This document shows positions 5,097 to 61,404 of a stretch of 64,000 nucleotides of DNA, in pieces. The position numbers were made by a program, and so were the translations under genes. This DNA is from an uncultured Ruminococcus sp. (lineage in GTDB: Bacteria > Bacillota > Clostridia > Oscillospirales > Ruminococcaceae). The notes beneath the pieces were generated by a model. It was not told where the DNA came from. It did not search any database and saw only the letters and a list, made by a program, of their open reading frames with translations. The stretch's first letter is position 1. Every line of letters starts with the position of its first letter. Location: contig CANQVA010000005.1 in assembly GCA_947627175.1 (NCBI GenBank), forward strand, positions 1 through 64,000, read 5' to 3'.

Positions 5097-5099
5097 AAT

Positions 5100-39100: not shown

Positions 39101-39121
39101 AAAATGGGACAGGGGATTTTT

Positions 39122-39598: not shown

Positions 39599-39623
39599 AA
39601 ATTACATATGAGGAGATGATATT

Positions 39624-40349: not shown

Positions 40350-40404
40350 ATTTAACTATTAGTAGAAAAGCAGATAGTTTAATATTTTATGGAGGTAAAA
40401 AACA

Positions 40405-41616
40405 ATGGCAAAAATTATTATGAAAACTCCGCTCGTCGAAATGGACGGCGACGAAATGACAAGAATACTCTGGAAGTGGATTAAGGAAACACTCCTTGAA
40501 CCATATGTAGAACTTAATACAGAGTATTATGACCTCGGTCTTGAACACAGAGAACTTACAAAAGATAAGGTTACTATGGATTCCGCTGAAGCTACTAAGA
40601 AATATGGCGTTGCTGTAAAGTGTGCAACTATTACCCCGAATGCAGCAAGAATGCCTGAATATAATCTTACTCAGATGTGGAAATCTCCTAACGGTACAAT
40701 CCGTGCCGCTCTTGACGGTACTGTTTTCCGCACTCCTATCATAGTAAAGGGCATTGAGCCGTATATTCCTACATGGACAAAGCCTATTACAATTGCACGT
40801 CACGCTTACGGCGATGTTTACAAGAATACTGAAATGCGTGTAAACAAGGGAAGTAAAGCTGAACTTGTTGTCACTGACGAAAACGGAAACGAAACACGTG
40901 AACTTATTCACGACTTTTCAAAAAGTGACGGCATTATTCAGGGACTTCATAACATTGATGACAGTATTGCAAGTTTTGCAAGAACTTGTCTTAACTACGG
41001 TCTTGACCTGAAACAGGACGTATGGTTTGCAACAAAGGATACAATTTCTAAAAAATATGACCATAGATTCAAGGATATTTTCCAAGAAATTTACGATAAT
41101 GAATATAAGGAAAAATATGAATCAGCAGGAATTGAATATTTCTATACTCTCATTGACGACGCTGTTGCAAGAGTTATCCGTTCAAACGGCGGTTATATAT
41201 GGGCTTGCAAAAACTATGACGGTGATGTTATGTCCGATATGGTTTCAACAGCTTATGGCAGTCTTGCAATGATGACTTCTGTTCTTGTTTCTCCCGACGG
41301 TATCTATGAATATGAAGCTGCACACGGTACAGTTCAGCGTCACTATTACAAATATCTCAAAGGTGAAGAAACATCAACAAATTCTGTTGCTACTATTTTC
41401 GCATGGAGTGGTGCTTTAAGAAAAAGAGGAGAACTCGACGGTACTCTCGAACTTTGTGAATTTGCCGATAAACTTGAAAAAGCTACTATTCAGACTATTG
41501 AAGACGGCGTTATGACAGGCGACCTTTATCTAATCTCAAAACTTGAAAACAAGAAAAAAGTTGATTCAAAAACTTTCCTTGACGAAATCAAAATAAGACT
41601 TGATAAATTGATGTAA
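40405..41616 (+). CDS. icd: NADP-dependent isocitrate dehydrogenase
   Basis: A 403-residue homodimeric isocitrate dehydrogenase of the eukaryotic-like subfamily. It begins with [17 protein letters not shown], has TITPNAARM and the substrate serine region [38 protein letters not shown] with the metal aspartates, and [23 protein letters not shown]. The AAHGT-Q-RHYY pattern is that of the NADP-specific group. It oxidises isocitrate to 2-oxoglutarate, supplying NADPH and glutamate precursor. It lies 35 bp upstream of rex. Confidence 0.95.
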
Positions 41617-41650
41617 TTCGGATTTATCCGTATATGAAAGGCATGATAAA

Positions 41651-42310
41651 ATGTCAAAAAATGCAATATCGAACTCAGTTATACGAAGGCTTCCACGCTA
41701 TTACAGATTTTTAGGCGAACTTGAAGAAAACGGCTATGTCCGTATTTCTTCAAGGGAACTTTCCGAAAAAATGGGATTTACCGCTTCTCAGATACGACAG
41801 GATTTTAATTGTTTCGGTGAATTTGGTCAGCAGGGATACGGTTACAACGTCAGTGAACTCCGCCGTCAGATAGGGCTTATTCTCGGTCTTGACAGAAAAA
41901 CACCCATTATTCTTATGGGTGCGGGAAATCTCGGAAAAGCTATTGCAACTCATATTGATTTTAATAACAGGGGATTTGAACTTATAGGAGCATTTGACAT
42001 AAATTCCGATATAATAGGCAGACAGATAGGTAAAATTATTGTTATGCATATTTCAGAACTTGAATATTTCTGCAAAAAAAATAAACCGACTGCCGCTATT
42101 CTTTGCATACCGCAGGAAGCTGCCGAAAAAGAAACAGACAGACTTATAAGTTGCGGTATCCGTGCTTTCTGGAATTTCACTCACTATGATTTGCGTATAA
42201 AATACAGCGATGTTGTCGTTGAAAATGTACATCTCGGCGACAGTCTTACAACTCTTTCATATTCTTTAAACTCACTTGAGCAGGAGGAAAAACAAAATGA
42301 AGATTCTTAA
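41651..42310 (+). CDS. rex: Redox-sensing transcriptional repressor Rex
   Basis: A 219-residue repressor that binds DNA when NAD+ is high and releases it when NADH rises. The N-terminal winged helix shows ISSRELSEKMGFTASQIRQDFNCFGEFGQQGYGYNV. The Rossmann NADH domain shows LMGAGNLGKAIATHI and a C-terminal domain-swapped helix follows. The gene is between icd and an alpha/beta hydrolase and about 1 kb upstream of the fumarase-Hdr-fumarate reductase operon, whose promoter region carries a Rex-like palindrome. Confidence 0.95.
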   Translation: MSKNAISNSVIRRLPRYYRFLGELEENGYVRISSRELSEKMGFTASQIRQDFNCFGEFGQQGYGYNVSELRRQIGLILGLDRKTPIILMGAGNLGKAIATHIDFNNRGFELIGAFDINSDIIGRQIGKIIVMHISELEYFCKKNKPTAAILCIPQEAAEKETDRLISCGIRAFWNFTHYDLRIKYSDVVVENVHLGDSLTTLSYSLNSLEQEEKQNEDS

Positions 42311-42806
42311 TATTCATGGATATAAAGGTAGTTCGGAAAACAGTGCCTGCTCTGCGTTGAAAAATCTCGGCTTTGAAGTTATTTCACCTGAAATAAATTA
42401 TGATTCGCTTGCTCCTGAAAAGGTTTATGAAAATCTTTGCAGTATTATTTCAGAAAACGAAATAAGCATGATTTGCGGGACAAGTCTGGGAGGATTTTAC
42501 GGCACAGTTCTTTCAGCAGAACTTGATATGCCTATTATTCTTGTAAATCCCTGCCTTATGCCGTTTGTGTACCTGCCACGACTTGGATTTACAGGTGATA
42601 TTATGCCTTATATTAAAATGTTCGGAAAAATTTCAAATCTCAAAAAACATAATATAAGTGCCATTATCGGCGGACAAGACGAAATTATTGACTCTCACGA
42701 CTTTACAAAAAATCTTCTTGAAAACAGCCGTTTCCGCATTATTCCAAACGGTAAACATTCAGGTGCGACTTTACAGCTTGAATCATATTTCAGGGAAATT
42801 TTATAA
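42297..42806 (+). CDS. YqiA/YcfP-type alpha/beta-fold esterase
   Basis: A 169-residue small alpha/beta hydrolase. It starts MKILNIHGYKGSSENS, has the nucleophile elbow GTSLGGFYG near residue 65, VNPCLMP, an acid in GGQDEIID and the histidine in GKHSGA. This set matches the YqiA/YcfP esterase family, whose physiological substrate is unknown. I start at 42297 with AGGAGG inside the end of rex, giving a short overlap and likely translational coupling. Confidence 0.8.
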   Translation: MKILNIHGYKGSSENSACSALKNLGFEVISPEINYDSLAPEKVYENLCSIISENEISMICGTSLGGFYGTVLSAELDMPIILVNPCLMPFVYLPRLGFTGDIMPYIKMFGKISNLKKHNISAIIGGQDEIIDSHDFTKNLLENSRFRIIPNGKHSGATLQLESYFREIL

Positions 42807-43267: not shown

Positions 43268-44644
43268 ATGGAATATCGTATTGAACACGACTCTATGGGC
43301 GAGGTTAAAGTTCCTGCCGACAAATACTGGGCTGCCCAGACTGAAAGAAGTCATGAAAATTTTCTTATAGGTGTAGGCATAGAAACAATGCCGAGGGAAA
43401 TAACTCATGCTTTCGGAATACTTAAAAAAGCTGCTGCTATAGCAAATCATGCTGTAAAACCTGAAAAAATGACAGATGAAAAACTTTCCGCAATCTCTCA
43501 GGCGTGCGACGAAGTTATGAGCGGTTCTCTTAATGAACATTTTCCGCTTGTTGTATGGCAGACAGGAAGCGGTACGCAGTCAAATATGAATGCAAATGAA
43601 GTAATTGCCAACAGGGGAAATGAAATCGCAGGTTCAAAACTTCTTCATCCGAATGATGACATAAATATGAGCCAATCATCAAATGATACTTTCCCGACTG
43701 CAATGCACATTGCCGCTGTTATTGCTGTTGAGGACAAGGTTATCCCGGCTGTTGATACTCTTATTGATACCTTTAAAAGACTTGAAAAAGAAAATGAAGG
43801 CATTGTAAAGAGTGGACGCACTCATCTTCAGGACGCAACCCCTATAAAGTTTTCACAGGAAATAAGCGGTTGGAGAGCATCACTTGAAAAAGACAAAAAA
43901 ATGCTTCTTTCTTCCGTTGAAGAATTGAGAGAACTTGCTCTTGGCGGTACAGCAGTAGGTACGGGTCTTAATGCACCTGTAGGTTTTGCTGAAAAGGCTG
44001 CTGAGGCTATCAGCGAAATTTCAGGAAAGAAATTTGTAACAGCACCTAACAAGTTCCATTCACTTACTTCAAAGGACGAAATTGTATTTGCTCATGGTGC
44101 TTTAAAGGCTCTTGCTGCTGATATGATGAAAATTGCAAATGATGTTAGATGGCTTGCTTCCGGTCCCCGTGACGGTCTCGGTGAAATCTTTATCCCTGAA
44201 AATGAACCCGGTTCGTCAATTATGCCCGGCAAGGTAAATCCTACACAGTGTGAACAAGTTACTATGGTTGCCGTTCAGGTAATGGGAAATGATGTTGCTG
44301 TAAGTATGGCTGCTTCTCAGGGTAATTTTGAACTTAACGTGTTTATGCCTGTATGTGCATATAATTTCCTTCAATCTGCACGTCTGCTTGCTGAATCAAT
44401 CGTTTCATTCAATAAGAATTGTGCTGTAGGAATAAAGGCAAACAAAGAAAAAATGCATCACAATCTTCATAACTCTCTTATGCTTGTTACTGCTCTTAAT
44501 CCGTATATCGGTTATGAAAACGCTGCAAAAACCGCAAAAAAGGCTTTCAAGGACAATATTTCCCTTAAAGATGCCTGCGTAGAACTCGGTTTCCTTACGG
44601 CTGAACGTTTTGATGAAGTTTTTCATCCGGAGGAAATGGCATAA
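43268..44644 (+). CDS. fumC: Class II fumarate hydratase
   Basis: A 458-residue oxygen-stable fumarase of the argininosuccinase superfamily. It shows RIEHDSMGEVKVPADKYWAAQTERS, TGSGTQSNMNANEV, the SQSSNDTFPTAMH segment, GRTHLQDATPIKF and the superfamily signature GSSIMPGKVNPTQCE. It interconverts malate and fumarate. Being first in the operon that ends in a fumarate reductase, it most likely runs in the reductive direction and feeds fumarate to that enzyme. It has a GGGAG site and a long regulatory region upstream. Confidence 0.96.
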   Translation: MEYRIEHDSMGEVKVPADKYWAAQTERSHENFLIGVGIETMPREITHAFGILKKAAAIANHAVKPEKMTDEKLSAISQACDEVMSGSLNEHFPLVVWQTGSGTQSNMNANEVIANRGNEIAGSKLLHPNDDINMSQSSNDTFPTAMHIAAVIAVEDKVIPAVDTLIDTFKRLEKENEGIVKSGRTHLQDATPIKFSQEISGWRASLEKDKKMLLSSVEELRELALGGTAVGTGLNAPVGFAEKAAEAISEISGKKFVTAPNKFHSLTSKDEIVFAHGALKALAADMMKIANDVRWLASGPRDGLGEIFIPENEPGSSIMPGKVNPTQCEQVTMVAVQVMGNDVAVSMAASQGNFELNVFMPVCAYNFLQSARLLAESIVSFNKNCAVGIKANKEKMHHNLHNSLMLVTALNPYIGYENAAKTAKKAFKDNISLKDACVELGFLTAERFDEVFHPEEMA

Positions 44645-44668
44645 AATTTATAGAAAGGAAGCGTACTA

Positions 44669-45466
44669 ATGAATACCTTCACGTATTATCCCGGCTGTAC
44701 GCTCAGAACCAAAGCAAAAGACCTTGACACTTATGCAAGGTCATCTGCCGAAGCTCTCGGAATTACTCTTGAAGAACCGGAGAATTGGCAGTGTTGCGGC
44801 GGTGCTTATACTACAGCCAAAGATGAAATTGCTACAAAACTTTCTGCGGTGAGAACTCTCAACGCCGCAAAAGAAGCCGGCAGACCGCTTGTAACAGTCT
44901 GTTCCGCCTGCCATAACGTTATAAAACAGACAAATTACGATATTTCCAAAGATGAGGAAATGGCAGCAAAGGTAAATAACTACCTTAAACTTGATGAACC
45001 TTATACAGGTGAAACTACTGTTTATCATTATCTTGAAATGCTCCGTGATGTTGTGGGTTTTGACAATCTTAAAAAACAAGTTGTAAATCCTTTCAAGGGA
45101 AAGAAAATTGCCGCTTATTACGGCTGTCTGCTTCTCCGTCCGAGTAAAGCTCTTGCTATGGACGACCCCGAAAATCCTACAATCATTGAGGACTTTATAA
45201 AGGCTATCGGCGGTACTCCTGTTATTTATGCACAGCGTAACGAATGTTGCGGAGGTTACATAACCATGGAGGACAAAGCACAGGCTTCAAAAAGAAGTTC
45301 AAAAGTTATGGATTCTGCTAAAGAACAAGGTGCAGACATGATTATTACTGCTTGTCCGCTCTGTCTTTACAACCTGAAAAAAAATTCCGGCTCCGACCTT
45401 CCTGTTTATTACTTCACTGAACTTCTTGCCGAAGCTCTCGGATTAAAGGAGGCTAATAATGAATAA
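44669..45466 (+). CDS. hdrB: Heterodisulfide reductase subunit B-like protein (two CCG domains)
   Basis: A 265-residue protein with two CCG domains, each of which in HdrB coordinates a non-cubane [4Fe-4S] cluster. The first has PGC near residue 10, WQCCGG and CSACHNV; the second has YGC near residue 150, NECCGG and CPLCLYNL. All ligands appear intact. Bacterial HdrB homologues pass electrons to varied disulfide or other acceptors. Here no heterodisulfide substrate is expected, so I infer that it relays electrons within the complex. It overlaps hdrC by 8 bp. Confidence 0.9.
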   Translation: MNTFTYYPGCTLRTKAKDLDTYARSSAEALGITLEEPENWQCCGGAYTTAKDEIATKLSAVRTLNAAKEAGRPLVTVCSACHNVIKQTNYDISKDEEMAAKVNNYLKLDEPYTGETTVYHYLEMLRDVVGFDNLKKQVVNPFKGKKIAAYYGCLLLRPSKALAMDDPENPTIIEDFIKAIGGTPVIYAQRNECCGGYITMEDKAQASKRSSKVMDSAKEQGADMIITACPLCLYNLKKNSGSDLPVYYFTELLAEALGLKEANNE

Positions 45467-45842
45467 TAATCTAAAAGAACAAGTTCTCCGTTCCAGCGGT
45501 GTAAACGTCCTGAAATGTATGCGATGCGGTAAATGCTCAGGCACTTGTCCGTCATATGATGAAATGGAATACCATCCGCATCAGTTTGTGTACATGGTGG
45601 AAAAAGGCGACATTGAAACTCTTATGAATTCAAAGTCAATTTATAAATGCCTTACCTGCTTTGCGTGTGTTGACAGATGCCCGAGAAACGTTGAACCGGC
45701 TAAGGTAGTTGAGGCTGTACGCCTTGCGGCTATCCGCAAGCAAGGTAATAATCATCTTATTGCCGACAGCATTCCCGAAATGCTGGACGAAGATTTGCCG
45801 CAGCAGGCAATTGTTACGGCATTCAGAAAATATACTAAGTAA
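45459..45842 (+). CDS. hdrC: Heterodisulfide reductase subunit C-like ferredoxin
   Basis: A 127-residue protein with two [4Fe-4S] motifs, CMRCGKCSGTCP and CLTCFACVDRCPRN, in the HdrC arrangement with a helical C-terminus. It would connect the clusters of HdrA to HdrB. There is 12 bp to hdrA with an AAGGAGGAG ribosome-binding site. Being a separate small protein rather than fused to B, it follows the hdrABC type seen in methanogens and sulfate reducers. Confidence 0.9.
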   Translation: MNNNLKEQVLRSSGVNVLKCMRCGKCSGTCPSYDEMEYHPHQFVYMVEKGDIETLMNSKSIYKCLTCFACVDRCPRNVEPAKVVEAVRLAAIRKQGNNHLIADSIPEMLDEDLPQQAIVTAFRKYTK

Positions 45843-45854
45843 GGAGGAGATAAT

Positions 45855-47861
45855 ATGCAGAGAATAGGAGTATTTGTCTGTCATTGCGGTACTAATATAG
45901 CCGCAACGGTAGATGTTAAGGCTGTCGCAGAGGCTCTCAGTCATGAATCCGGAGTAGTTATCTCTCAGGAATATCAGTATATGTGTTCTGAAGCCGGTCA
46001 GAATCTCATAAAGGATTCTATAAAAGAATATGGTCTTACAGGTGTTGTTGTATGTTCATGTTCACCAAGAATGCATGAAAATACTTTCAGAAAAGCTGCC
46101 GCTGCTGCCGGTCTTAATCCTTACCTTGTTGAAATCGCAAATATACGTGAACAGTGTTCATGGATTCACAAGGATATTGCAACGGCTACTGAAAAAGCTA
46201 TTATTCTCGGTAAAGCCGCTATTGCAAAAGTTCACCTCAATGCACCCCTTACAGCAGGCGAAAGCCCTGTTGCAAAAAGAGCATTGGTAATAGGCGGAGG
46301 CATCGCAGGTATTCAGACAGCTCTCGATATTGCCGAAGCAGGTTTTGAAGTTGATATAGTTGAAAAAGAAGCTACTATCGGCGGAAAAATGGCTCAGATT
46401 GATAAAACTTTCCCGACGCTTGACTGTGCCGCTTGTATTCTCACGCCTAAAATGGTTGAGGCTTCACAAAATGAACTTATCACTATTCATTCATATAGTG
46501 AAGTAAGTGCTGTAAAGGGATTTGTAGGAAACTTTACAGTTACTATAAAGAAAAAGACACGTTTTGTTGATGAGACAAAATGTACCGGCTGTGGACTTTG
46601 TACAGAGGCTTGCCCCATGAAAAAAGTTCCGAATGCTTTTAATCTCGGTCTTGATAACAGAAGTGCTATTTATATTCCGTTTGCACAAGCTGTACCGAAA
46701 GTTGCTACAATTGACCCGAATTACTGCCTTAAACTTAAAGGCGGTACTGTTAAGGAAAAAGTCTGCGGAAAATGTGCTGCGGCTTGTACTGTAGGTGCTA
46801 TCAATTATCATCAGCAGGACGAATACATTGAACAAAAATACGGTGCAATAATCGTTGCAACAGGTTTCAATCCGATTAAACTTGATAAATATGATGAGTT
46901 TGCATATAATCAGTGTCCCGACGTTGTAACTTCTCTTGAACTTGAAAGACTTATGAACGCCGCAGGCCCTAACGGTGGAACACTTCTCAGACCGTCCGAC
47001 AAAACTCATCCGCACAAAATTGTATTTGTACAGTGTGTAGGTTCAAGATGCGACGACAGCAAGGGAAAACCGTACTGTTCAAAAATATGTTGTATGTATA
47101 CAGCAAAACACGCTATGCTTATCCGTGAAAAATACCCGGATACAGAAGTTTATGTATTCTACATAGATGTACGTACCCCCGGCAAGAATTTTGATGAATT
47201 CTACCGCAGGGCAGTTGAACAATATAACGTTCATTATATAAAGGGCATGGTAGGCAAAGTTACCCCAAAAGCTGACGGTACTATAGATGTTCAGGCTTCT
47301 GACCTTCTTTCAAATGAACAGCTTCACATTGATGCTGATATGGTTGTTCTTGCAACTGCTATTGAACCAGACAAAACTGCACGTCCGCTTGCTACAATGC
47401 TTACAACTCAAATGGATACAAATGATTTCTTTACAGAGGCTCACGCAAAACTTCGTCCTGTAGAAAGTGCTACTGCCGGTATTTTCCTTTCGGGTGCTTG
47501 TCAAGGCCCTAAAGATATTCCGGAAACTGTTGCACAGGCAAGTGCTGCCGCTTCAAAAGCTATCGGTCTGCTTGTAAAGAACAGTATCACCTGCAACCCG
47601 TGTGTTGCTCATTCAAACGAACTTATGTGTAACGGCTGTTCAGCCTGTGAAAAAGTTTGTCCTTATGGTGCTATCACTTATCAGGACAAAGAATTCAGAA
47701 TGCCTGACCGCACAACAGCTATAAGACGTGTGGCAAGTGTAAATCCTGCCGTTTGTCAGGGTTGTGGTGCTTGTACAGTTGCCTGTCCGTCAGGTGCTAT
47801 GGATTTAAACGGCTTCTCTAACAGTCAGATTATGGCGGAGGTAGATGCAATATGCAAGTAA
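45855..47861 (+). CDS. hdrA: Heterodisulfide reductase subunit A-like flavoprotein (bifurcating type)
   Basis: A 668-residue flavoprotein, about the length of methanogen HdrA. In order there is an N-terminal cysteine-containing domain (VFVCHCGTNIA, VVCSCSPRMHENTF), a Rossmann FAD motif (ALVIGGGIAGIQTALDIAEAG), IGGKMAQIDKTFPTLDCAACILTPKM, an inserted [4Fe-4S] pair (CTGCGLCTEACP and CGKCAAACTVGAI), and two C-terminal ferredoxin motifs (CNGCSACEKVCPYGAI, CQGCGACTVACPSGAM). In the known family the FAD splits electron pairs between ferredoxin and a high-potential acceptor. All cluster ligands look present, so bifurcation is plausible. It overlaps the next gene by 10 bp. Confidence 0.92.
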   Translation: MQRIGVFVCHCGTNIAATVDVKAVAEALSHESGVVISQEYQYMCSEAGQNLIKDSIKEYGLTGVVVCSCSPRMHENTFRKAAAAAGLNPYLVEIANIREQCSWIHKDIATATEKAIILGKAAIAKVHLNAPLTAGESPVAKRALVIGGGIAGIQTALDIAEAGFEVDIVEKEATIGGKMAQIDKTFPTLDCAACILTPKMVEASQNELITIHSYSEVSAVKGFVGNFTVTIKKKTRFVDETKCTGCGLCTEACPMKKVPNAFNLGLDNRSAIYIPFAQAVPKVATIDPNYCLKLKGGTVKEKVCGKCAAACTVGAINYHQQDEYIEQKYGAIIVATGFNPIKLDKYDEFAYNQCPDVVTSLELERLMNAAGPNGGTLLRPSDKTHPHKIVFVQCVGSRCDDSKGKPYCSKICCMYTAKHAMLIREKYPDTEVYVFYIDVRTPGKNFDEFYRRAVEQYNVHYIKGMVGKVTPKADGTIDVQASDLLSNEQLHIDADMVVLATAIEPDKTARPLATMLTTQMDTNDFFTEAHAKLRPVESATAGIFLSGACQGPKDIPETVAQASAAASKAIGLLVKNSITCNPCVAHSNELMCNGCSACEKVCPYGAITYQDKEFRMPDRTTAIRRVASVNPAVCQGCGACTVACPSGAMDLNGFSNSQIMAEVDAICK

Positions 47862-48298
47862 ACGATAATAAAGAATTTCAACCGCTGATTGTCGCATTCT
47901 GCTGTAACTGGTGTTCATATGCAGGTGCTGACCTTTCAGGCACAAACAGACTTAACTATCCGACAAATGTTAAAATCATCAGAGTACCATGTTCTTGCCG
48001 TGTAAATCCGATGTTCATTTTAAGGGCATTTCAGAAAGGTGCAGACGGAGTTATTCTCTGTGGCTGTCACCCCGGCGACTGTCATTATACGTCGGGCAAC
48101 TACTTCACAAGAAGAAGAATGACACTTCTTTTCAGTATGCTCGATTTTCTCGGCATTGAACGTGACCGTACAAGAGTAGAATGGGTTTCTGCCGCTGAAG
48201 GTGCAAAGTTTGCGGCAACTATGAACGAATTTACAGAAGCTGTAAAGAAACTCGGCCCTAACCGCAGATTGGAGGATTTACGATGCAGGAAGCAATAA
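47852..48298 (+). CDS. mvhD: MvhD/FlxD-type iron-sulfur protein
   Basis: A 148-residue [2Fe-2S] protein of the MvhD family, which links an electron-donating module to HdrA. The cysteines lie in FCCNWCSYAGAD, VPCSCRVN and CGCHPGDCHY. In methanogens the partner is a hydrogenase; in Flx-Hdr systems it is an NADH-oxidising module. Here no hydrogenase gene is present and the next three genes encode NAD(P)H/iron-sulfur proteins, so the Flx role is the better reading. It overlaps both hdrA and the following gene. Confidence 0.9.
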   Translation: MQVNDNKEFQPLIVAFCCNWCSYAGADLSGTNRLNYPTNVKIIRVPCSCRVNPMFILRAFQKGADGVILCGCHPGDCHYTSGNYFTRRRMTLLFSMLDFLGIERDRTRVEWVSAAEGAKFAATMNEFTEAVKKLGPNRRLEDLRCRKQ

Positions 48299-49254
48299 TC
48301 AGCAAGGCAAAACAGCTCCTTGCAGATGGCACAGTAAACCGTGTTATCGGCTGGAAAAAAGGAGAATTTGCTTACGACATCACTCCGGCAATTTTTGAAA
48401 GTGCAGAGGAAATTGATGCAGAATTTGTATATGATGATTTTACCTCCGCAAACGTTTCAAAATATCTTGTCAAGGAAAGCAAAAAAGAAGGAAAAATCCT
48501 TGCTTTCCTCAAACCTTGCGATACTTACAGTCTTAACCAGCTTACTAAGGAACACAGGGTAAACCGTGACAATATTTATGTTGTCGGTATTCCAAGCGAC
48601 GGTAAACTTGACGCTGAAAAAATCAAGGCTAAGGGAATAACAGGTATTATCGGCGTTGAAAGAAACGGCGACACACTTAAAATAAATACCATTTACGGCG
48701 AGGAAACTATGCCCGTTTCAGAAGCTATGAGCAATAAGTGTTTAAGCTGTAAGAGTAAAAAACACGTTACTTATGATGAACTTATTGGTGAGGACGGCGA
48801 AGTTATTGAATCAGACCGTTTCGACATGGTTGAAAAACTTGAAAACATGACTTCTCAGGAGCGTTATGACTTCTGGAAAAATGAACTTTCAAAGTGCATC
48901 AGATGTAATGCGTGCAGAAATGTCTGTCCTGCTTGTACCTGTGAAAACTGTGTATTTGATAATCCCGATTCAGGTATTCAGAATAAAGCAGCATCAGACA
49001 GCTTTGAAGAAAATATGTTCCATATTATCCGTGCTTTCCACGTTGCAGGAAGATGTACAGACTGCGGTGAATGTTCAAGAGTTTGTCCTCAGAATATTCC
49101 GCTTCACCTCCTCAACAGAAAGTTTATTAAGGACATCAACTCCCTTTATGGTGAGTATCAGGCAGGAGAGGATACAACTTCAAGAGCACCTCTCAATGAT
49201 TATACACAGGACGACTGCGAAGCAAGTATCGTTCATGAAAGGGGTGTTGAGTAA
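48283..49254 (+). CDS. 4Fe-4S dicluster electron-transfer protein (FlxC-like)
   Basis: A 323-residue protein. The N-terminal 200 residues resemble the FrhB/FdhB-type hydrogenase-beta fold (LAFLKPCDTYSLNQLTKEHR, CLSCKSKK). The C-terminal part has two ferredoxin-like motifs, CIRCNACRNVCPACTCENC and CTDCGECSRVCP. It fits one of the two iron-sulfur subunits found between MvhD and the NADH-binding subunit in Flx-type clusters. The assignment as B or C is arbitrary. It starts inside the end of the MvhD-like gene. Confidence 0.8.
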   Translation: MQEAIISKAKQLLADGTVNRVIGWKKGEFAYDITPAIFESAEEIDAEFVYDDFTSANVSKYLVKESKKEGKILAFLKPCDTYSLNQLTKEHRVNRDNIYVVGIPSDGKLDAEKIKAKGITGIIGVERNGDTLKINTIYGEETMPVSEAMSNKCLSCKSKKHVTYDELIGEDGEVIESDRFDMVEKLENMTSQERYDFWKNELSKCIRCNACRNVCPACTCENCVFDNPDSGIQNKAASDSFEENMFHIIRAFHVAGRCTDCGECSRVCPQNIPLHLLNRKFIKDINSLYGEYQAGEDTTSRAPLNDYTQDDCEASIVHERGVE

Positions 49255-50273
49255 TGCTTAAAATATCTCTCGAAAATCTCGGTAAACTTTTTGACGCTGT
49301 AGCTGAAAAACAGACTCTTTATATTCCTACAGACCGTGAAGACGGTGCATCAGAATACAAAAAGTATGAATCAGGAATGAAACTCAGCAAAAATCTTAAT
49401 ACACTGCGTAGTGCAAAGGACTTTTTCTTTCCTCAGACTGAAAATCTCGCTGACTTCAAAATGGAGGGCAAAAAGATTGAAGTTATTGACGTGCGTAAAG
49501 AATCGGAAGATTTCGTTGTGTTTGGAGTTCGTGCTTGTGATGCAAGAAGTTTTACAATTCTTGATAAAGTTTTCCTTTGTGAACCCGTTGACAGCTATTA
49601 TAAAAACCGCCGTGACCACGGAACTGTTGTAACTATGGCTTGCACTAAACCTACTGAAACTTGTTTCTGCGGAACTTTCGGCATTGACCCGACTGCTCCC
49701 GAGGGTGATGCTGCTTGTTGGTCTGATGGTGAAAATCTCTTTATTCAGGCTAATAACGAAAAAGGTCAGGCGTTTATTGACTCTGTTTCTTCACTCCTTG
49801 AGGACGGCGACACCGCAAAACTCGATGAAGTAAAGGCTAAAACTAAAGAAATTCTCGGAAAACTCCCGCTTGCTAATCTCTCTACCGAATCATTCGGCGG
49901 TGATAAACTCATGGAACACTTCAATTCTGAAAAGTGGGCTGAACTCTCTGAAAGCTGTCTTGGCTGTGGTACTTGTACATTCGTATGCCCGACTTGTCAA
50001 TGCTATGATATTAAAGATTTCGATACGGGTCACGGAATAAAACGTTTCAGATGTTGGGATTCCTGTATGTATTCCGATTTCACAAAAATGGCTCATGGCA
50101 ATATACGTAATTCTCAGCTTGAACGTTTCCGTCAGAGATTCATGCACAAGCTGGTATATTTCCCTTCAAACAATAATGGCGAATTCGGCTGTGTAGGCTG
50201 TGGAAGATGTCTTTCTAAATGCCCTATTTCAATGAATATCGTCAAGGTAATGAAAGCATTGGAGGTTAAGTAA
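49254..50273 (+). CDS. AsrA-like 4Fe-4S electron-transfer protein (FlxB-like)
   Basis: A 339-residue protein resembling subunit A of anaerobic sulfite reductase. It has VFGVRACDARSFTILDKVF, CTKPTETCFCGTFGID, then CLGCGTCTFVCPTCQCYD and a final CVGCGRCLSKCPISM. A sulfite reductase catalytic (siroheme) subunit is absent from the operon, so these AsrAB-like genes are better read as the Flx electron-input module. Its ATG overlaps the TAA of the preceding gene and its end overlaps the next start. Confidence 0.85.
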   Translation: MLKISLENLGKLFDAVAEKQTLYIPTDREDGASEYKKYESGMKLSKNLNTLRSAKDFFFPQTENLADFKMEGKKIEVIDVRKESEDFVVFGVRACDARSFTILDKVFLCEPVDSYYKNRRDHGTVVTMACTKPTETCFCGTFGIDPTAPEGDAACWSDGENLFIQANNEKGQAFIDSVSSLLEDGDTAKLDEVKAKTKEILGKLPLANLSTESFGGDKLMEHFNSEKWAELSESCLGCGTCTFVCPTCQCYDIKDFDTGHGIKRFRCWDSCMYSDFTKMAHGNIRNSQLERFRQRFMHKLVYFPSNNNGEFGCVGCGRCLSKCPISMNIVKVMKALEVK

Positions 50274-51118
50274 TGAACACTAATGACACTTTAATTCCAC
50301 GCATCGGTGTTGTTACCGACATAAGAACAGATACTCCCGATGTAAAGACTTTCAGAGTAAATGCTATACAGGCAGACGGCACTGTAGGCGGTAAGGTTTT
50401 TGAACATATGCCCGGTCAGTGTGCAATGCTTTCTATTCCGGGTGTTGGTGAAGGTATGTTTTCTATAACTTCTTCACCTACAAACAAGGAATTTATGGAA
50501 TTCAGCATTAAAAAATGCGGTTGTCTTACTTCATGGCTTCACGCTATGGAAGTAGGTCAGCAGATTACTATCAGAGGACCTTACGGAAATCATTTTCCCG
50601 TTGAAACAGACCTTAAAGGCAAAGATTTACTCTTTATTGCCGGCGGTATTGGTCTTGCTCCGCTCCGCTCGGTAATTAACTATGTACGTGACAATCGTGC
50701 AAACTACGGTGATGTACAGATTATATACGGTTCACGTTCAAAAGATGACCTCGTTGATTATCAGGAAATTCTCGATGAATGGATGAACGATGACGGCGTT
50801 GAAGTGAATCTTACAATTGACAGAGAACAGGAGGGCTGGGACGGTCATGTCGGATTTGTTCCTAACTATGTAAAGGAACTTAACCCCTCACTCAGCAAAA
50901 CAGTACTTATATGCGGCCCTCCGATTATGATTAAGTTCACACTTGCTGGTCTTAAAGAACTTGGCTTTACTGAAACTCAGGTTTATACAACTATGGAACT
51001 TCGCATGAAATGTGCTGTCGGCAAATGCGGAAGATGTAATATCGGTGATAAATACGTCTGCAAAGACGGCCCTGTTTTCCGCTTTGACCAGCTCGACGAA
51101 CTGCCTGACGAATATTGA
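50273..51118 (+). CDS. flxA: FAD/NAD(P)H-binding oxidoreductase subunit (FlxA/AsrB-like)
   Basis: A 281-residue ferredoxin-reductase-fold protein. The FAD part has GQCAMLSIPGVGEGMFSITSSP (residues about 45-70), the nicotinamide part has LLFIAGGIGLAPLRSVI (about 122) and LICGPPIMIKF (about 210), and a C-terminal [2Fe-2S] loop has CAVGKCGRCNIG followed by a later cysteine. It is the expected site where NADH (or NADPH) donates a hydride. It is the closest to a defined electron donor in the operon, which points to NAD(P)H rather than H2 or formate. Confidence 0.88.
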   Translation: MNTNDTLIPRIGVVTDIRTDTPDVKTFRVNAIQADGTVGGKVFEHMPGQCAMLSIPGVGEGMFSITSSPTNKEFMEFSIKKCGCLTSWLHAMEVGQQITIRGPYGNHFPVETDLKGKDLLFIAGGIGLAPLRSVINYVRDNRANYGDVQIIYGSRSKDDLVDYQEILDEWMNDDGVEVNLTIDREQEGWDGHVGFVPNYVKELNPSLSKTVLICGPPIMIKFTLAGLKELGFTETQVYTTMELRMKCAVGKCGRCNIGDKYVCKDGPVFRFDQLDELPDEY

Positions 51119-51133
51119 TAAGGAGTATTGAAC

Positions 51134-51817
51134 ATGGAAAATATGTTAAACGTTTACCTGTTCGGCAAAAAATATCAGGTGCCGGCAGGGCTCACTATAA
51201 TGACGGCTATGGAATATGCCGGCTATGAACTTGTAAGAGGCTGTGGTTGCCGTAACGGTTTCTGCGGTGCTTGTGCAACTATCTACAGAATCAAGGATAA
51301 ACAGGAACTTCATGCCTGCCTCGCTTGTCAGACAGAAGTTCAGGAAGGTATGTACGTTGCTACACTTCCTTTCTTCCCGCTTGTAAAGAAAATTTACAAT
51401 ATTGAGGAAATCAAGCCCGACCAGCAGATTATGATGCAACTTTATCCTGAAATATACAGCTGTATCGGCTGTAACGCCTGCACTAAAGCTTGTACTCAGG
51501 AACTTAATACAATGCAATATATTGCTTATGCACAGAGAGGCGAATATGAAAAGTGTGCTGAAGAGTCTTTCGACTGCGTTATGTGCGGAGTATGTTCTTC
51601 ACGCTGTCCTGCCGGAATATCTCATCCACAGGTTGCTATGCTTGCAAGACGACTCAACGGTAAATATATAGCTCCCGAGTGCGGACACCTTGCTGACCGT
51701 GTAAACGAAATCAATGAGGGTATCTTTGATGAAAAAATGGCTGAACTTATGGCTAAATCAGTCGATAATGTTCAGGAAATAAAAGACCTTTATAATAATC
51801 GTGAGATTGAAAAGTAA
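51134..51817 (+). CDS. frdB: Fumarate reductase/TfrB-like iron-sulfur subunit
   Basis: A 227-residue protein with an N-terminal plant-type [2Fe-2S] loop (CGCRNGFCGACA and a later CLAC) and two cysteine motifs CIGCNACTKACTQ and CVMCGVCSSRCPAG. This is a succinate dehydrogenase/fumarate reductase B-type wire, but it differs from classical FrdB and lacks the CCG domains of methanogen TfrB. In this operon those CCG domains sit in the separate HdrB. I start it at ATG 51134 after AGGAG. It lies 12 bp before the flavoprotein gene. Confidence 0.8.
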   Translation: MENMLNVYLFGKKYQVPAGLTIMTAMEYAGYELVRGCGCRNGFCGACATIYRIKDKQELHACLACQTEVQEGMYVATLPFFPLVKKIYNIEEIKPDQQIMMQLYPEIYSCIGCNACTKACTQELNTMQYIAYAQRGEYEKCAEESFDCVMCGVCSSRCPAGISHPQVAMLARRLNGKYIAPECGHLADRVNEINEGIFDEKMAELMAKSVDNVQEIKDLYNNREIEK

Positions 51818-51829
51818 GGAGGAGCATAA

Positions 51830-53431
51830 ATGTATAAAATTGATAAGCTTAATGAGCTTGCAGAGATAGTTGCATCAAAAAGACCTGAAAATGCAAAGCT
51901 TGAACCAAGAAGAATGACAGCAGAAGAAAAGGATAGTCTCCTTGCTGAATTTCACCCCGACTACAGACAGGATCAATTCAGCGTTCTTGAAGTAGGCGTA
52001 AACAAGGGCGGAAAAGTTCCGACACAGCTTGCAGAACTTCTTCAGGGTCACAGCAGAATCAACCCGTCTGATATTGACCTCACCAATCCTGACTATGACA
52101 CAGACGTTCTTATAATCGGCGGCGGCGGAGCAGGTTCTTCATGTGCAATTGAAGCCGATGAAGCAGGCGTTAAGGCTATGATAGTTACAAAACTTCGTAT
52201 AGGCGATGCTAATACAATGATGGCTGAAGGCGGTATTCAGGCTGCTGACAAACCTAATGATTCCCCGGCTATTCATTATGTTGACGCTTTCGGCGGTGGT
52301 CATTTTGCTGCAAAGCCTGAACTTGTCAAAAAGCTTGTTACAAAAGCTCCTGAAGCTATTCAGTGGCTTAACAAACTTGGTGTTGAATTTGACAAAGAAG
52401 CTGACGGCACTATGATTACAACTCACGGCGGCGGTACTTCAAGAAAGAGAATGCACGCTGCAAAAGACTATTCCGGTGCTGAAATAATGAGAACTCTCCG
52501 TGATGAAGTTCTGAACAGAGGTATTCCTGTAATTGACTTCACTGCTGCTGTTGAAATCATTCTTGACGAAAACGGAAAAGCTGCCGGTGCTGTCCTTATG
52601 AACATGGAAACAAAGGAACTTATGGTTGCAAGAGCAAAGACTGTTGTTATTGCTACAGGCGGTGCAGGAAGAATGCATTATCAGGGATTCCCGACTTCAA
52701 ATCATTATGGTGCAACTGCTGACGGTCTTATTCTCGGTTACAGAGTAGGTGCAAAACTCCGTGATGTTGATACTCTCCAGTATCACCCGACGGGAACAGG
52801 CTATCCTGAACAGATTTTCGGTGCTTTGGTTACTGAAAAAGTTCGTTCACTTGGTGCAAAGCTTGTTAATATTGATGGTGAAGTCTTTATGAATCCGCTT
52901 GAAACACGTGATGTTACAGCTTCTTCAATTATCCGTGAATGTACAGCAAGAAACAAGGGCATTGAAACAAATCTCGGTAAAGCTGTATGGCTCGATACTC
53001 CTATGATAGAACTTATCCACGGTGAAGGAACTATTGAAAAGAGAATCCCCGCAATGCTCAGAATGTTCGGCAAATACGGAATTGACATCCGCAAAGAACC
53101 TATTCTTGTTTTCCCGACACTCCATTACCAGAACGGCGGTATTGATATAACCGATAAAAACGAAACAACTGTTGAAAACCTCTTTGCTGCCGGTGAAGTT
53201 GCAGGCGGTATTCACGGAAGAAACAGACTTATGGGTAATTCTCTCCTTGATGTTATCGTATTCGGAAGAAATGCCGGAATATATGCTGCTGAAAAGGCTA
53301 AGGAAACAGCAACCCCTGAAAAACTTACTCTTGAACATATCAATAAGTTTAATGCAGAACTCGCTGATGCCGGAATTGATACAGGCAAAGTTTCACCTAT
53401 GCTTCTGCCTCACTATGCAAGAAAGTCATAA
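51830..53431 (+). CDS. frdA: Fumarate reductase flavoprotein subunit (soluble, no membrane anchor)
   Basis: A 533-residue FAD protein of the SdhA/FrdA/TfrA family. After a unique N-terminal extension of about 90 residues comes the Rossmann motif TDVLIIGGGGAGSS, then MMAEGGIQAA, THGGGTSRKRMHAA (flavin-linking region; residue pattern TSRKRMH), LQYHPTGTGYP, NPLETRDVTA, LHYQNGGIDI and GGIHGRNRLMGNSLLD. The His and Arg residues that bind and protonate fumarate in known enzymes appear present. No FrdC/FrdD anchor is encoded nearby, so the enzyme should be cytosolic and take electrons from the preceding modules. Confidence 0.88.
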   Translation: MYKIDKLNELAEIVASKRPENAKLEPRRMTAEEKDSLLAEFHPDYRQDQFSVLEVGVNKGGKVPTQLAELLQGHSRINPSDIDLTNPDYDTDVLIIGGGGAGSSCAIEADEAGVKAMIVTKLRIGDANTMMAEGGIQAADKPNDSPAIHYVDAFGGGHFAAKPELVKKLVTKAPEAIQWLNKLGVEFDKEADGTMITTHGGGTSRKRMHAAKDYSGAEIMRTLRDEVLNRGIPVIDFTAAVEIILDENGKAAGAVLMNMETKELMVARAKTVVIATGGAGRMHYQGFPTSNHYGATADGLILGYRVGAKLRDVDTLQYHPTGTGYPEQIFGALVTEKVRSLGAKLVNIDGEVFMNPLETRDVTASSIIRECTARNKGIETNLGKAVWLDTPMIELIHGEGTIEKRIPAMLRMFGKYGIDIRKEPILVFPTLHYQNGGIDITDKNETTVENLFAAGEVAGGIHGRNRLMGNSLLDVIVFGRNAGIYAAEKAKETATPEKLTLEHINKFNAELADAGIDTGKVSPMLLPHYARKS

Positions 53432-53570: not shown

Positions 53571-54812
53571 ATGGATTTAATTACGGTTGGAAGTTTTTCT
53601 ATCAGCATTAAAGAAATAACTTTCCTGATGTTTGCAGTCTTTTTTATAACGACTGTTGGCTATCTTATTGGCAGAATTACCGTTAAAGGCGTTTCGCTCG
53701 GCACTGCCGGTGTATTTATAATAGCCCTTCTTTACGGCTGTTTTTGCTACAGCAATCTCGGTGAAAACCTTATGCTTGAAGGCACGACGTATGTCAAGAA
53801 CGCACTTAAAGTTATCGAAAATATCGGACTTATTCTTTTCGTAACGTCTGTAGGATTCATTGCAGGTCCGAACTTCTTCGGAAATTTCAAAAAGAACTTC
53901 AAGTCATATGTACTTCTTGCACTTGTCGTAATTATTGCAGGCGGACTTGCCTGCGGTGGCTGTATCCTTATTGACAAGGGCGTTTCAGGTGACCCGACTG
54001 AAAACATCGCTGCAATGCTTGTCGGACTTCTTTCAGGAGCTCTTACAAGTACACCTGCTTTTTCAGCCGCAAAGGCAACTGTTGCATCACGTGCAAACGG
54101 TGAAGTGCTTGAAGACCTCGTAACAGTTGGTCATGGTATTGCTTATCTTTTCGGTGTAATCGGCGTTGTTCTTTTTGTTCAGCTTGTTCCGAAATTCATG
54201 AAAGCTGATATGAAAAAGGAACGTGAACAGCTTATAGCTGCTGATTCAGAAGGTTCAAAGAAAAAACCAAAGGGCAAACTTATTGAAATGGACGAATTCG
54301 GTTTCATGCCTTTTGCACTTGCTTCAATTCTCGGTATCTTTATTGGTTCAATAAAGTTTGGTAACTTCTCGCTTACCACAACAGGCGGTTGCCTGCTTGT
54401 TTCACTTTTATTCGGTCATTTCGGCAATTTCGGAAAAGTAAACATAATGCCGAAAGAAAGCACTCTTAAAGTTTTCAGGGAATTTGGACTTATGATGTTC
54501 CTTATCGGTGCAGGCGTTGCAGGCGGTGCAAGTTTCGTTGAACACTTCAAAGCTGTATACTTCCTCTACGGAATAATCATGACAATTGTTCCGATGATTG
54601 TCGGCTTCTTCTTTGCAAAATATGTTCTCAAACTCAGCCTCCTCAATAACCTCGGTTCAATTACAGGCGGTATGACTTCTACTCCCGCACTTGGTACTCT
54701 CATCAGTACAGCAGGTACAGAAAATGTTGCATCTGCTTATGCCGCTACATATCCTGTAGCACTTATTGCAGTAGTTATCATATCACAAGTTCTGCTTATG
54801 ATATTTAAGTAA
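53571..54812 (+). CDS. AspT/SucE-family (YidE/YbjL duplication) transporter, no RCK_C domains
   Basis: A 413-residue membrane protein with roughly ten hydrophobic segments. Each half carries the family's glycine/serine/threonine signature: GLLSGALTSTPAFSAAKA in the first half and GSITGGMTSTPALGTLIST in the second. The short charged linker (residues about 205-245) replaces the two RCK_C domains found in full-length AspT and SucE, which run to about 540 residues. Family members exchange aspartate and alanine or export succinate. Placed directly after fumarate reductase, a succinate exporter is the best guess. A terminator follows. Confidence 0.8.
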   Translation: MDLITVGSFSISIKEITFLMFAVFFITTVGYLIGRITVKGVSLGTAGVFIIALLYGCFCYSNLGENLMLEGTTYVKNALKVIENIGLILFVTSVGFIAGPNFFGNFKKNFKSYVLLALVVIIAGGLACGGCILIDKGVSGDPTENIAAMLVGLLSGALTSTPAFSAAKATVASRANGEVLEDLVTVGHGIAYLFGVIGVVLFVQLVPKFMKADMKKEREQLIAADSEGSKKKPKGKLIEMDEFGFMPFALASILGIFIGSIKFGNFSLTTTGGCLLVSLLFGHFGNFGKVNIMPKESTLKVFREFGLMMFLIGAGVAGGASFVEHFKAVYFLYGIIMTIVPMIVGFFFAKYVLKLSLLNNLGSITGGMTSTPALGTLISTAGTENVASAYAATYPVALIAVVIISQVLLMIFK

Positions 54813-61180: not shown

Positions 61181-61404
61181 TGTTAAATCAATAAAAAATA
61201 ATCCGCCTTGCCGTCATATAGTGTATAAAACCCGCACGAAGCAGGTGGGTAAACGCCCGAATGCTTCACGCTCCCTTCGTCCGCATATAAAAATATGTCA
61301 GGAGGTCTGCAATTCACAGTCGGAGCTGTATTCCCTAATGAGATGTGTTGGATTATAAAAACTATAATTACTCGAACAAGGCAGAATATTAACTTGTATT
61401 TACA
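61181..61404 (-). ncRNA. Candidate structured small RNA, class unknown
   Basis: A plus-strand gene-free region of 400 bp whose composition is much more balanced than other intergenic DNA here. On the minus strand it has a good promoter and a downstream terminator, giving a transcript of about 220-260 nt. Possible stems include GAAGCA/TGCTTC around GGG/CCC (near 61225-61255), AGCTCC/GGGAGC (61270-61330) and CATAT/ATATG. The small open frame on this strand (61183-61422) has no ribosome-binding site. A 6S-type or other housekeeping ncRNA is possible; I cannot assign it. Confidence 0.5.

Follow-up and report, generated by a model that had tools for sequence, protein, structure and literature searches.

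A conserved Ruminococcus operon that probably encodes a soluble, electron-bifurcating NAD(P)H-dependent fumarate reductase

Introduction

Among the hydrogen sinks of the rumen and gut is the reduction of fumarate, a competitor of methane formation. A run of ten genes in an uncultured Ruminococcus sp. raises the question of whether fumarate might be reduced there by a soluble enzyme that draws on NAD(P)H and reduces ferredoxin at the same time. A sequence-only reading of the window (the 64,000-nucleotide stretch analyzed, from contig CANQVA010000005.1) took these genes to encode one complex coupling NADH oxidation to the reduction of both fumarate and ferredoxin, with an energy gain for the host. 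Our analysis upholds this in part: the genes appear to form one unit, fumarate is the likely acceptor and the system looks soluble; the idea itself is not new and the energy gain is doubtful. The operon, in our assessment, probably joins a Flx-Hdr module to a FrdBA module that it feeds; together they would act as a soluble, NAD(P)H-dependent fumarate reductase with bifurcation at HdrA.

Results

Organization, conservation and neighborhood of the operon

The ten open reading frames lie at 43268-53431 on the plus strand, as first read, in the order fumC, hdrB-hdrC-hdrA, flxD, two AsrA-like genes, flxA, frdB and frdA (Table 1), with successive intergenic gaps of 24, -8, 12, -10, -16, -1, -1, 9 and 12 bp (i.e., -16 to +24 bp). 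The transcription unit probably extends, across a gap of 139 bp after frdA, to the AspT/YidE-type transporter gene at 53571-54812 as an eleventh gene. For frdB, the ATG at 51134 is more likely the start than the TTG at 51128; it gives a product of 227 aa, like the database relatives, and AAGGAG lies 8 bases upstream of it. FumC is the only one of the ten proteins to pass an NCBIfam equivalog cut-off.

Among 391 Clostridia genomes, FrdB was found in 54 at E <= 1.2e-76 (next match 1.7e-12) and HdrB in 54 at E <= 1e-20, with 52 genomes in common. In 41 of the 53 loci fetched, the nine core genes lie on one strand in an unchanged order; of the remainder, 11 are cut by contig ends and one is permuted yet complete. 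The core genes stay contiguous, which supports the view of the ten as one functional unit. The carriers include R. flavefaciens FD-1 and ATCC 19208.

The genes around this core bear on its substrate. A class II fumarase is present in 20 of the 53 loci and a class I fumarase in 16, with 17 having neither and none both; these are unrelated enzymes, each of them linked to the core operon. An MDH-type gene accompanies 30/53 loci, and all 30 encode Arg at the position that determines the substrate. A relative of the permease, itself a candidate succinate exporter, follows frdA in 33 loci (within 400 bp in 31). GTP-PEP carboxykinase is also encoded in the genome from which the window comes.

The icd-rex-fumC-hdr order recurs in R. 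flavefaciens FD-1, ATCC 19208 and YAD2003 and in one MAG. Scored against what we take to be the Rex operator consensus, 17 of 41 promoters bear a Rex-like operator with at least 12/14 matches, as against a mean of 0.68 and a maximum of 4 promoters for 60 permuted palindromes. Rex probably ties expression of the operon to NADH/NAD+.

Table 1. Features of the operon and its flanks in the window.
Feature	Position	Strand	Evidence
Rex, NADH/NAD+-sensing repressor; likely regulator, outside the enzyme	41651..42310	+	NF003990, 288 bits (cut-off 233)
Candidate Rex operator TTGTTAA-TATT-ATATCAA	43101..43118	.	12/14 consensus bases
fumC, class II fumarase (malate <-> fumarate)	43268..44644	+	TIGR00979, 704 bits (cut-off 665)
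HdrB, two CCG domains, two predicted non-cubane [4Fe-4S]	44669..45466	+	PF02754 twice
HdrC, 2x[4Fe-4S] relay HdrA-HdrB	45459..45842	+	Profile match, two [4Fe-4S] motifs
HdrA, FAD and multiple [4Fe-4S]	45855..47861	+	666 bits, nearly full length, vs 5odc HdrA
FlxD/MvhD (FlpD/MvhD), input relay to HdrA	47852..48298	+	PF02662, 187 bits
AsrA-like/FlxB-C-type Fe-S protein 1	48283..49254	+	Two CxxCxxCxxxC; 93 bits vs 9t1s_M
AsrA-like/FlxB-C-type Fe-S protein 2	49254..50273	+	PF17179; 148 bits vs sulfhydrogenase 1 beta
FlxA/AsrB-like NAD(P)H:FAD:[2Fe-2S] entry subunit	50273..51118	+	PF00175, PF00970, PF10418; 191 bits vs sulfhydrogenase 1 gamma
FrdB-like wire, [2Fe-2S] and RnfC-like 2x[4Fe-4S]	51128..51817	+	12 cluster Cys, alignment; start probably ATG 51134
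FrdA-like flavoprotein, predicted fumarate reductase catalytic subunit, non-covalent FAD	51830..53431	+	TfrA model best, 348 bits
AspT/YidE/YbjL-type permease, candidate C4-dicarboxylate (succinate) exporter	53571..54812	+	PF06826, 193 bits; TIGR01625 over cut-off

The Flx-Hdr module

The subunit features of FlxABCD-HdrABC systems are present: an FAD-bearing HdrA whose ferredoxin clusters are inserted/C-terminal, a two-CCG HdrB, HdrC, FlxD and FlxA. The NCBIfam Hdr cut-offs were set on methanogens and the operon Hdr proteins score below them; HdrA reaches 793 bits against the HdrA2 model (cut-off 1100), a model that includes a fused MvhD part. The six or so Fe-S motifs at first ascribed to HdrA resolve into three canonical CxxCxxCxxxC motifs and further Cys, many aligned with those of 5odc; its assignment as a FAD-bearing, multi-cluster HdrA stands. 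The 8 Cys of HdrC and the 10 CCG Cys of HdrB are each invariant in 43/43 sequences. HdrB, the sole CCG protein found in this genome, gives 150 bits against the SdhE model (cut-off 500) and 141 bits against the HdrB model, and its match to the TfrB model falls in that model's C-terminal half. On the input side, both AsrA-like proteins are AsrA/sulfhydrogenase-beta-like, the first matching only weakly outside its clusters; its match 9t1s_M is a chain of an F420-formate dehydrogenase. FlxA is an AsrB/sulfhydrogenase-gamma-like FAD/NAD(P)/[2Fe-2S] protein, whose best solved match, sulfhydrogenase 1 gamma, is labelled NADPH-dependent by NCBIfam; by family only, it is predicted to bind NAD(P)H.

The FrdBA module and its acceptor

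The "FrdB-like wire" proves to be an Fe-S protein made up of a [2Fe-2S] domain and an RnfC-like 2x[4Fe-4S] domain, with all 12 cluster Cys invariant in 54/54 sequences; it is not a canonical SdhB/FrdB iron-sulfur subunit of complex II (29 bits against TIGR00384, cut-off 88). Its structure model (pLDDT 62) was too poor to use. TfrB has C-terminal CCG domains; family search and alignment found no CCG domain in FrdB.

These observations bear on the possibility that the operon encodes two co-regulated enzymes, namely an Flx-Hdr bifurcating to a disulfide at HdrB and a separate FrdBA fed by a thiol carrier or ferredoxin. HdrB keeps all ligands of both non-cubane clusters, i.e., those of a disulfide reductase, such that a thiol/disulfide step may occur there, and for the Hdr-Flx of Desulfovibrio, PMC4215793 gives DsrC as the presumed partner. 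However, FrdB lacks the CCG thiol site of TfrB, the genomes with FrdB and HdrB are nearly the same, and the nine genes remain contiguous even when permuted. Hence, we consider two separate enzymes improbable.

FrdA falls below the cut-off (718) of its best model, TfrA. It has an N-terminal extension of ~90 residues, and PF02910, presumably the accession of the FrdA-type C-terminal domain, went unmatched in the family search; the first match of its predicted structure is E. coli FrdA (1kf6). The residues with which fumarate reductases bind carboxylate and deliver protons, H233, T245, E246, R288, H356 and R391 of E. coli FrdA (translated CDS numbering), are conserved in 52/52 relatives. The flavin-linking His (E. 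coli H45) is Asn in all 52, which differs from the covalent FAD of complex II; this change favors fumarate reduction in E. coli Frd.

We rejected L-aspartate oxidase (NadB) as the identity of FrdA: the NadB model gives 281 bits (cut-off 453) and there are no NAD-biosynthesis neighbors. The second high-scoring FAD_binding_2 protein of the genome has NadB as its closest match, adjoins nadC on another contig and is likely NadB. The catalytic set is common to the FrdA family and NadB and so cannot by itself separate the two.

It is extremely unlikely that FrdA reduces another unsaturated acid, e.g., mesaconate or an acrylate: the FAD_binding_2 family does include other enoate reductases, with urocanate reductase among the solved-structure matches of FrdA, but the above fumarate reductase residues are kept, and two unrelated fumarases and MDH are linked to the operon. 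The same residues and linkages point to fumarate, as first proposed, as the likely acceptor, and NAD(P)H-driven fumarate reduction is very probably what the unit performs.

Quinones, ferredoxin and energetics

A search with one family, Sdh_cyt, found no membrane anchor in the genome; such an anchor would have counted against the first reading. With no UbiA-type quinone prenyltransferase detected either, these searches showed neither the anchor nor the quinone route of complex II. Likewise, neither RnfC nor a Complex1_49kDa protein (Ech/Nuo large subunit) was found. Across the survey, RnfC is present in 31/54 FrdB-positive genomes (five of these matches being weak, E 2e-63 to 1e-54) vs 272/337 FrdB-negative ones, counting one subunit at E <= 1e-40 with at most 4 candidates scored per genome and kinship uncorrected; a partnership with Rnf would predict the reverse. 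Thus, an Rnf route for energy gain is unlikely in this genome, and the proposed gain for the host becomes doubtful, there being no RnfC or Complex1_49kDa found through which reduced ferredoxin could build up an ion gradient. A gain, if there is one, would come indirectly, by way of H2 or biosynthesis, or from something outside the families searched.

The reaction of 2 NADH with fumarate and ferredoxin is computed to yield -33 to -53 kJ/mol for ferredoxin at -500 to -400 mV. If bifurcation were obligate with no route from ferredoxin to NAD, and acetate were fed by pyruvate formate-lyase, the ceiling on succinate would be 0.67/hexose with a ferredoxin hydrogenase and 0.50/hexose with a confurcating one. 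The succinate of R. flavefaciens was reportedly near 0.9 in the hands of Latham & Wolin in 1977. By this redox arithmetic, obligate bifurcation is awkward at high succinate yield.

A plain NADH:fumarate reductase with the same electron path would escape the cap: HdrA would be a mere wire, no ferredoxin would be reduced, and succinate would simply dispose of NADH, which fits a genome in which neither a quinone route nor RnfC nor an Ech/Nuo large subunit was detected. Against this, seven Flx-Hdr genes are a high price for such disposal, HdrA is close to the methanogen HdrA, and the ~350 mV span offers enough energy for ferredoxin reduction; we see this option as rather unlikely. Confurcation, by which succinate and reduced ferredoxin would be oxidized to make NADH, is conceivable as the reaction should be reversible in principle. 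However, it is exergonic in the reducing direction, the genes linked with the operon include MDH, fumarase and a permease of exporter type, GTP-PEP carboxykinase is encoded in the genome, and the flavin-linking His of FrdA is replaced by Asn, a change that favors fumarate reduction in E. coli Frd; further, succinate excretion by R. flavefaciens has been reported (PMC7174568, PMC4649033). This makes the reverse operation very unlikely. The coupling of fumarate reduction to ferredoxin reduction is, in our judgment, probable.

Discussion

We propose the following mechanism, in which the subunits would form a physical complex and NADH rather than NADPH would be the donor. A hydride from NADH would pass to the FAD of FlxA. 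From the [2Fe-2S] cluster of FlxA, electrons would reach the FAD of HdrA by way of both AsrA-like proteins and then FlxD. This flavin would split the electron pair: one electron would leave through the ferredoxin-type clusters of HdrA to ferredoxin, and the other would travel via HdrC and the non-cubane clusters of HdrB, by direct contact, to FrdB and FrdA, where fumarate would become succinate. Fumarate would be supplied by FumC; in relatives, a class I fumarase may take its place and malate dehydrogenase would contribute, with the permease probably exporting succinate and Rex probably coupling expression to NADH/NAD+. The literature searched contained no biochemical proof of such a bifurcating fumarate reductase, and we know of no activity, purification or mutant for any such complex.

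Such a fumarate reductase would dispense with quinone, with a membrane anchor and with a canonical FrdB. If it is ferredoxin-coupled, succinate formation in Ruminococcus and its relatives would be a source of low-potential electrons as well as an NADH sink, and ATP and H2 per succinate would be counted differently in rumen models. More tentatively, in gut Clostridia lacking quinones and Rnf, as this Ruminococcus seems to, succinate formation may even be a principal ferredoxin-reducing step: pyruvate would be handled mainly by pyruvate formate-lyase, leaving Hdr-Flx-Frd, as opposed to pyruvate oxidation, to supply the reduced ferredoxin for H2 and biosynthesis. If true, a bifurcating, Rex-controlled MDH-fumarase-Flx-Hdr-Frd branch would replace fumarate respiration in ~1/7 of the sampled Clostridia species. 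R. flavefaciens FD-1 and ATCC 19208, both cultured strains from the rumen, carry the conserved operon, which makes it a clear target for biochemistry.

Comparison with known systems

The nearest precedent for HdrB-to-FrdB transfer is the 8-methylmenaquinol:fumarate reductase SdhABE, where SdhE, an HdrB-like CCG subunit, serves a FrdB-type protein; that enzyme is quinol-linked at the membrane, and HdrB scores far below the SdhE cut-off. The methanogen TfrAB is soluble, as the operon's enzyme is predicted to be, and its TfrA is the model nearest to FrdA; it differs in that FrdA lies below the TfrA cut-off, FrdB has no C-terminal CCG and HdrB is a separate protein. With HdrABC-MvhAGD and HdrA2B2C2 of methanogens the operon shares an HdrA homologous over nearly its whole length; there, the donors are H2, F420H2 (bifurcation from which is described in PMC5296606) or formate, and the acceptor is CoM-S-S-CoB.

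The Desulfovibrio FlxABCD-HdrABC (Hdr/flox) offers the same kind of seven-subunit NAD(P)H-to-Hdr module, with bifurcation proposed; its acceptor is thought to be DsrC, and the fumarate reductase of D. alaskensis is separate and menaquinol-linked, according to PMC4215793. In the rTCA cluster of tubeworm symbionts, flxABCD-hdrABC is interspersed with korABCD and the thiol:fumarate reductase tfrAB, and direct electron delivery has been proposed; in contrast to the Ruminococcus operon, it is coupled to 2-oxoglutarate synthase and CO2 fixation, its bearers have Rnf, and tfrAB was not expressed in step with the cluster (PMC6315080, PMC11636981).

The closest counterpart is the "succinate operon" of Pseudoclostridium thermosuccinogenes (CDQ83_RS03365 to RS03315), for which PMC7282089 (2020) gives the same architecture and proposes ferredoxin coupling, crediting the idea of a bifurcating fumarate reductase to Koendjbiharie & van Kranenburg 2019 (Preprints 201912.0288). 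By that published gene list, the 1+7+2+1 plan of fumarate hydratase, Flx-Hdr, fumarate reductase and guessed succinate transporter is matched in the window by a fumarase, a seven-gene Flx-Hdr, a two-gene Frd and a transporter. When CO2 was limiting, expression of that operon rose about 4-fold, an increase that fell short of significance for some subunits. The physiology reported there is mixed: H2 abolished succinate, with sulfide having the opposite effect. Rnf and Ech are both ascribed to P. thermosuccinogenes; searches of the window's genome for RnfC and Complex1_49kDa detected neither. Thus, the idea is already in print, as a hypothesis in PMC7282089, and the Ruminococcus operon is a well-supported further member of this operon type.

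Organization of the operon and its neighborhood

The ten-gene description in the sequence-only reading is borne out, with its details amended: ten successive ORFs on one strand are spaced by -16 to +24 bp, a purine-rich stretch resembling a ribosome-binding site precedes the start codon of most of them, and the Pfam and NCBIfam assignments agree on fumC, hdrB (two CCG domains), hdrC, hdrA, flxD/mvhD, two AsrA-like Fe-S proteins (asrA1 and asrA2), an AsrB/FlxA-like NAD(P)H-FAD-[2Fe-2S] protein (flxA), and FrdB-like and FrdA-like proteins. Immediately upstream are genes for aconitase, NADP-isocitrate dehydrogenase and Rex, which sets the oxidative arm to 2-oxoglutarate beside the reductive C4 arm. 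A PARG-type protein (microbial ADP-ribose glycohydrolase) and an esterase-like one of UPF0227 are encoded between these TCA genes and the operon, and a 6S RNA (68 bits vs a gathering score of 46) is found elsewhere in the window.

Coordinates of the operon, its neighbors and two genes from other stretches
Stretch	Feature	Positions	Strand
Window	aconitase, NADP-isocitrate dehydrogenase, Rex	within 36477-42310	
Window	PARG-type protein	38414-39100	
Window	UPF0227 esterase-like protein	42276-42806	
Window	fumC-hdrB-hdrC-hdrA-flxD-asrA1-asrA2-flxA-frdB-frdA	43268-53431	+
Window	AspT/YidE/YbjL-type permease (family match), 139 bp after frdA	53571-54812	+
Window	6S RNA	61196-61390	-
L063 (locus of a relative)	lactate/malate dehydrogenase-type gene	12157-13101	
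L182 (window's own genome, G000:C1)	second [FeFe] hydrogenase-domain protein	4195-5871	

Conservation as a unit across Clostridia

In an evenly drawn sample of 391 Clostridia genomes, FrdB is recovered at E <= 1.2e-76 in 54, with a gap from there to 1.7e-12; at a looser E <= 1e-3 the number rises to 292, and the extra matches listed mostly cover the RnfC-like dicluster part. HdrB is likewise found at E <= 1e-20 in 54 of the same 391 genomes, and the two coincide in 52, a raw count that ignores relatedness. All four exceptions (G071, G379, G032 and G224) are incomplete genomes (62-88% complete), in which the match sits right at or close to the start of a contig, or a contig end truncates the locus.

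The surroundings of frdB were fetched for all 53 positive genomes other than that of the window. The nine core genes, i.e., all but fumC, occur in a single order on one strand at 41 of these loci (including one with frdA cut by a contig end and one with a split hdrA), while contig ends cut 11. One genome, G269, has all nine in the permuted order frdB-frdA-hdrB-hdrC-hdrA-flxD-asrA1-asrA2-flxA, at 33-60% identity. This contiguity despite rearrangement argues for the nine core genes forming a functional unit. Class II fumarase accompanies the core at 20 of the 53 loci; 16 have instead class I fumarase, a family unrelated to class II, none has both, and 17 have neither, eight of these being among the 11 contig-cut loci. 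Class I enzymes were detected by blastp to the G269 pair, with a Pfam check on three loci.

Among the matches listed, the closest FrdB relatives (89-97% identity) that carry names are nearly all from Ruminococcus, many of them R. flavefaciens; one of the 120 proteins listed, from a MAG, carries the name Prevotella. The relatives are mostly draft genomes, and all nine core genes are in order at 60 of 80 listed loci; another 19, on stretches 3.4-15.9 kb long, show fewer, and in L161 frdA is split into two pieces. R. flavefaciens FD-1 (L107), ATCC 19208 (L121) and YAD2003 (L115) share the order icd-rex-fumC-hdrBCA-flxD-asrA1-asrA2-flxA-frdB-frdA-transporter, thereby preserving the icd-rex-fumC order of the window. 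A locus from a MAG labelled uncultured Treponema (L151) combines ldh/mdh-fumC with the nine core genes, its FrdB being 78% identical; this may reflect gene transfer or a mis-binned contig.

Regulation and pathway context

The promoter of the window and those of 40 relatives, 41 in all, were searched for the 14-base consensus of the Rex operator. Of the 53 relatives, 13 were omitted from this set: 11 without hdrB, one with <250 bp upstream and the permuted one. In 17 promoters, a Rex-like site matching at least 12 of the 14 bases falls inside the roughly 400 bp preceding the operon's first gene, and the other 24 show none at that threshold; the 60 permuted palindromes used as a control averaged 0.68 promoters, with 4 at most.

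A lactate/malate dehydrogenase-type gene is present upstream of fumC or hdrB in 30 of the 53 loci (the L063 gene and 29 others among L042-L094). All four tested pass the NCBIfam L-lactate dehydrogenase cut-off, two of them also passing the malate dehydrogenase subfamily cut-off. The substrate-determining residue is Arg in 30/30, the malate dehydrogenase state, and the lactate dehydrogenase identity was rejected on this ground; judged by this residue, the L-lactate dehydrogenase model probably gives the wrong name to genes for malate dehydrogenases. Together with the fumarases beside the core genes, they place oxaloacetate -> malate -> fumarate -> succinate on one stretch in many relatives; in the window there is no mdh beside fumC. 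Relatives of the downstream permease follow frdA in 33 of the 53 loci; the permease is a candidate succinate exporter. At 413 aa it is shorter than the full-length AspT/YidE/YbjL models (553-562 positions). That family is best known for Asp/Ala exchange.

Fumarate as the likely substrate

Six catalytic residues of E. coli FrdA (H233, T245, E246, R288, H356 and R391, translated-CDS numbering) are retained in 52/52 proteins (the window and 51 others). The same six are present in E. coli NadB and hence mark a wider family. The flavin-linking H45 is replaced by Asn in 52/52. TfrA, NadB and flavocytochrome c3 have non-covalent flavin, and in E. coli, losing the flavin-linking His impairs succinate oxidation more than it does fumarate reduction. 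The predicted FrdA structure (pLDDT 78, pTM 0.82), adequate but informative on fold only, has E. coli quinol-fumarate reductase (1kf6, E 4e-28) as its first match, with NadB and flavocytochrome c among further matches.

A second FAD_binding_2 protein of the window's genome was considered as a rival fumarate reductase and set aside: it scores highest against NadB models (464 bits, cut-off 472; 430 bits, cut-off 453), with 327 bits to SdhA/FrdA, and nadC is adjacent. The gene for the nadB-type protein is distinct from frdA. A third match (L005), examined as an ORF only, reaches 42 bits.

Electron flow and energy metabolism

The claim that no membrane anchor serves FrdAB was followed genome-wide: the window's genome (98.7% complete) yielded no Sdh_cyt anchor (control positive in 7/14 genomes) and no UbiA prenyltransferase (control positive in 14/14), which together make a quinol route unlikely on gene content. 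The operon HdrB is the sole CCG protein found in this genome. Both CCG ligand sets are complete in 43/43 HdrBs. The 12 cluster Cys of FrdB are invariant in 54/54, but this protein shows neither a CCG nor a canonical SdhB match; its structure model (pLDDT 62) was set aside. HdrB scores similarly against methanogen HdrB (141 bits) and SdhE of methylmenaquinol:fumarate reductase (150 bits), both below cut-off. SdhE is the nearest known case of an HdrB-like protein serving a FrdB-type protein, and by this precedent we propose that HdrB might pass electrons to FrdB.

The bifurcating reaction would be 2 NADH + fumarate + Fd(ox) -> succinate + Fd(red) + 2 NAD+, for which we compute about -53 to -33 kJ/mol with ferredoxin (Fd) at -400 to -500 mV and the value of +33 mV that PMC5861303 gives for fumarate. 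Bifurcation is hence thermodynamically allowed. As for the fate of reduced ferredoxin, no RnfC was found in the window's genome, and RnfC is rarer in FrdB-positive (31/54, five weak) than FrdB-negative genomes (272/337), counted by one subunit at E <= 1e-40, with 283 of the 303 positive genomes reaching the family cut-off; some weak positives may be other proteins. Both observations count against an Rnf partnership. Nor was an Ech/Nuo-type large subunit found in this genome (control positive in 11/14).

The genome does have a HydABC-like set that includes an [FeFe] hydrogenase of group A6, pyruvate formate-lyase and a PorG-PorA-PorB set; nothing exceeds the cut-off of the single-chain PFOR model, whose two stronger matches are PorA and PorB of that set. 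Its PEP carboxykinase is of the GTP-type, the ATP-type not being found. A second [FeFe] hydrogenase-domain protein (558 aa, with a PF04060 FeS domain) adjoins pyruvate formate-lyase, has no NCBIfam match at E <= 1e-40 and is possibly a sensory hydrogenase.

If all ferredoxin exits as H2 and pyruvate uses formate-lyase, succinate is capped at a computed 0.67 or 0.50 per hexose. R. flavefaciens on cellulose reportedly yields about 0.9, above this cap, implying another route from ferredoxin to NAD(P), or that bifurcation is partial or absent. Mainly because of this conflict, we hold the coupling of fumarate reduction to ferredoxin reduction by the operon complex to be a reasonably probable but far from secure reading.

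Relationship to known systems

We regard the operon as real, strongly conserved and of an already published kind, here in a Ruminococcus. New, as far as our literature searches show, are the count of co-occurrence across Clostridia, the exchange between two fumarase families that are unrelated, the renaming of the upstream dehydrogenases as malate dehydrogenases, Asn in place of the flavin-linking His, the Rex-like sites, and a host in which neither Rnf nor quinone genes were detected. Among the papers listed by full-text searches of a collection with few subscription papers, no later one announces a biochemical test of this operon kind in its title or abstract opening. Two reviews, PMC7174568 and PMC4649033, note that R. 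flavefaciens produces succinate, and less of it when a methanogen is present. The HdrA can be aligned over nearly its whole length with the solved methanogen HdrA. A like operon type in P. thermosuccinogenes is described in PMC7282089, and a related idea, there with tfrAB and korABCD, exists for tubeworm symbionts.
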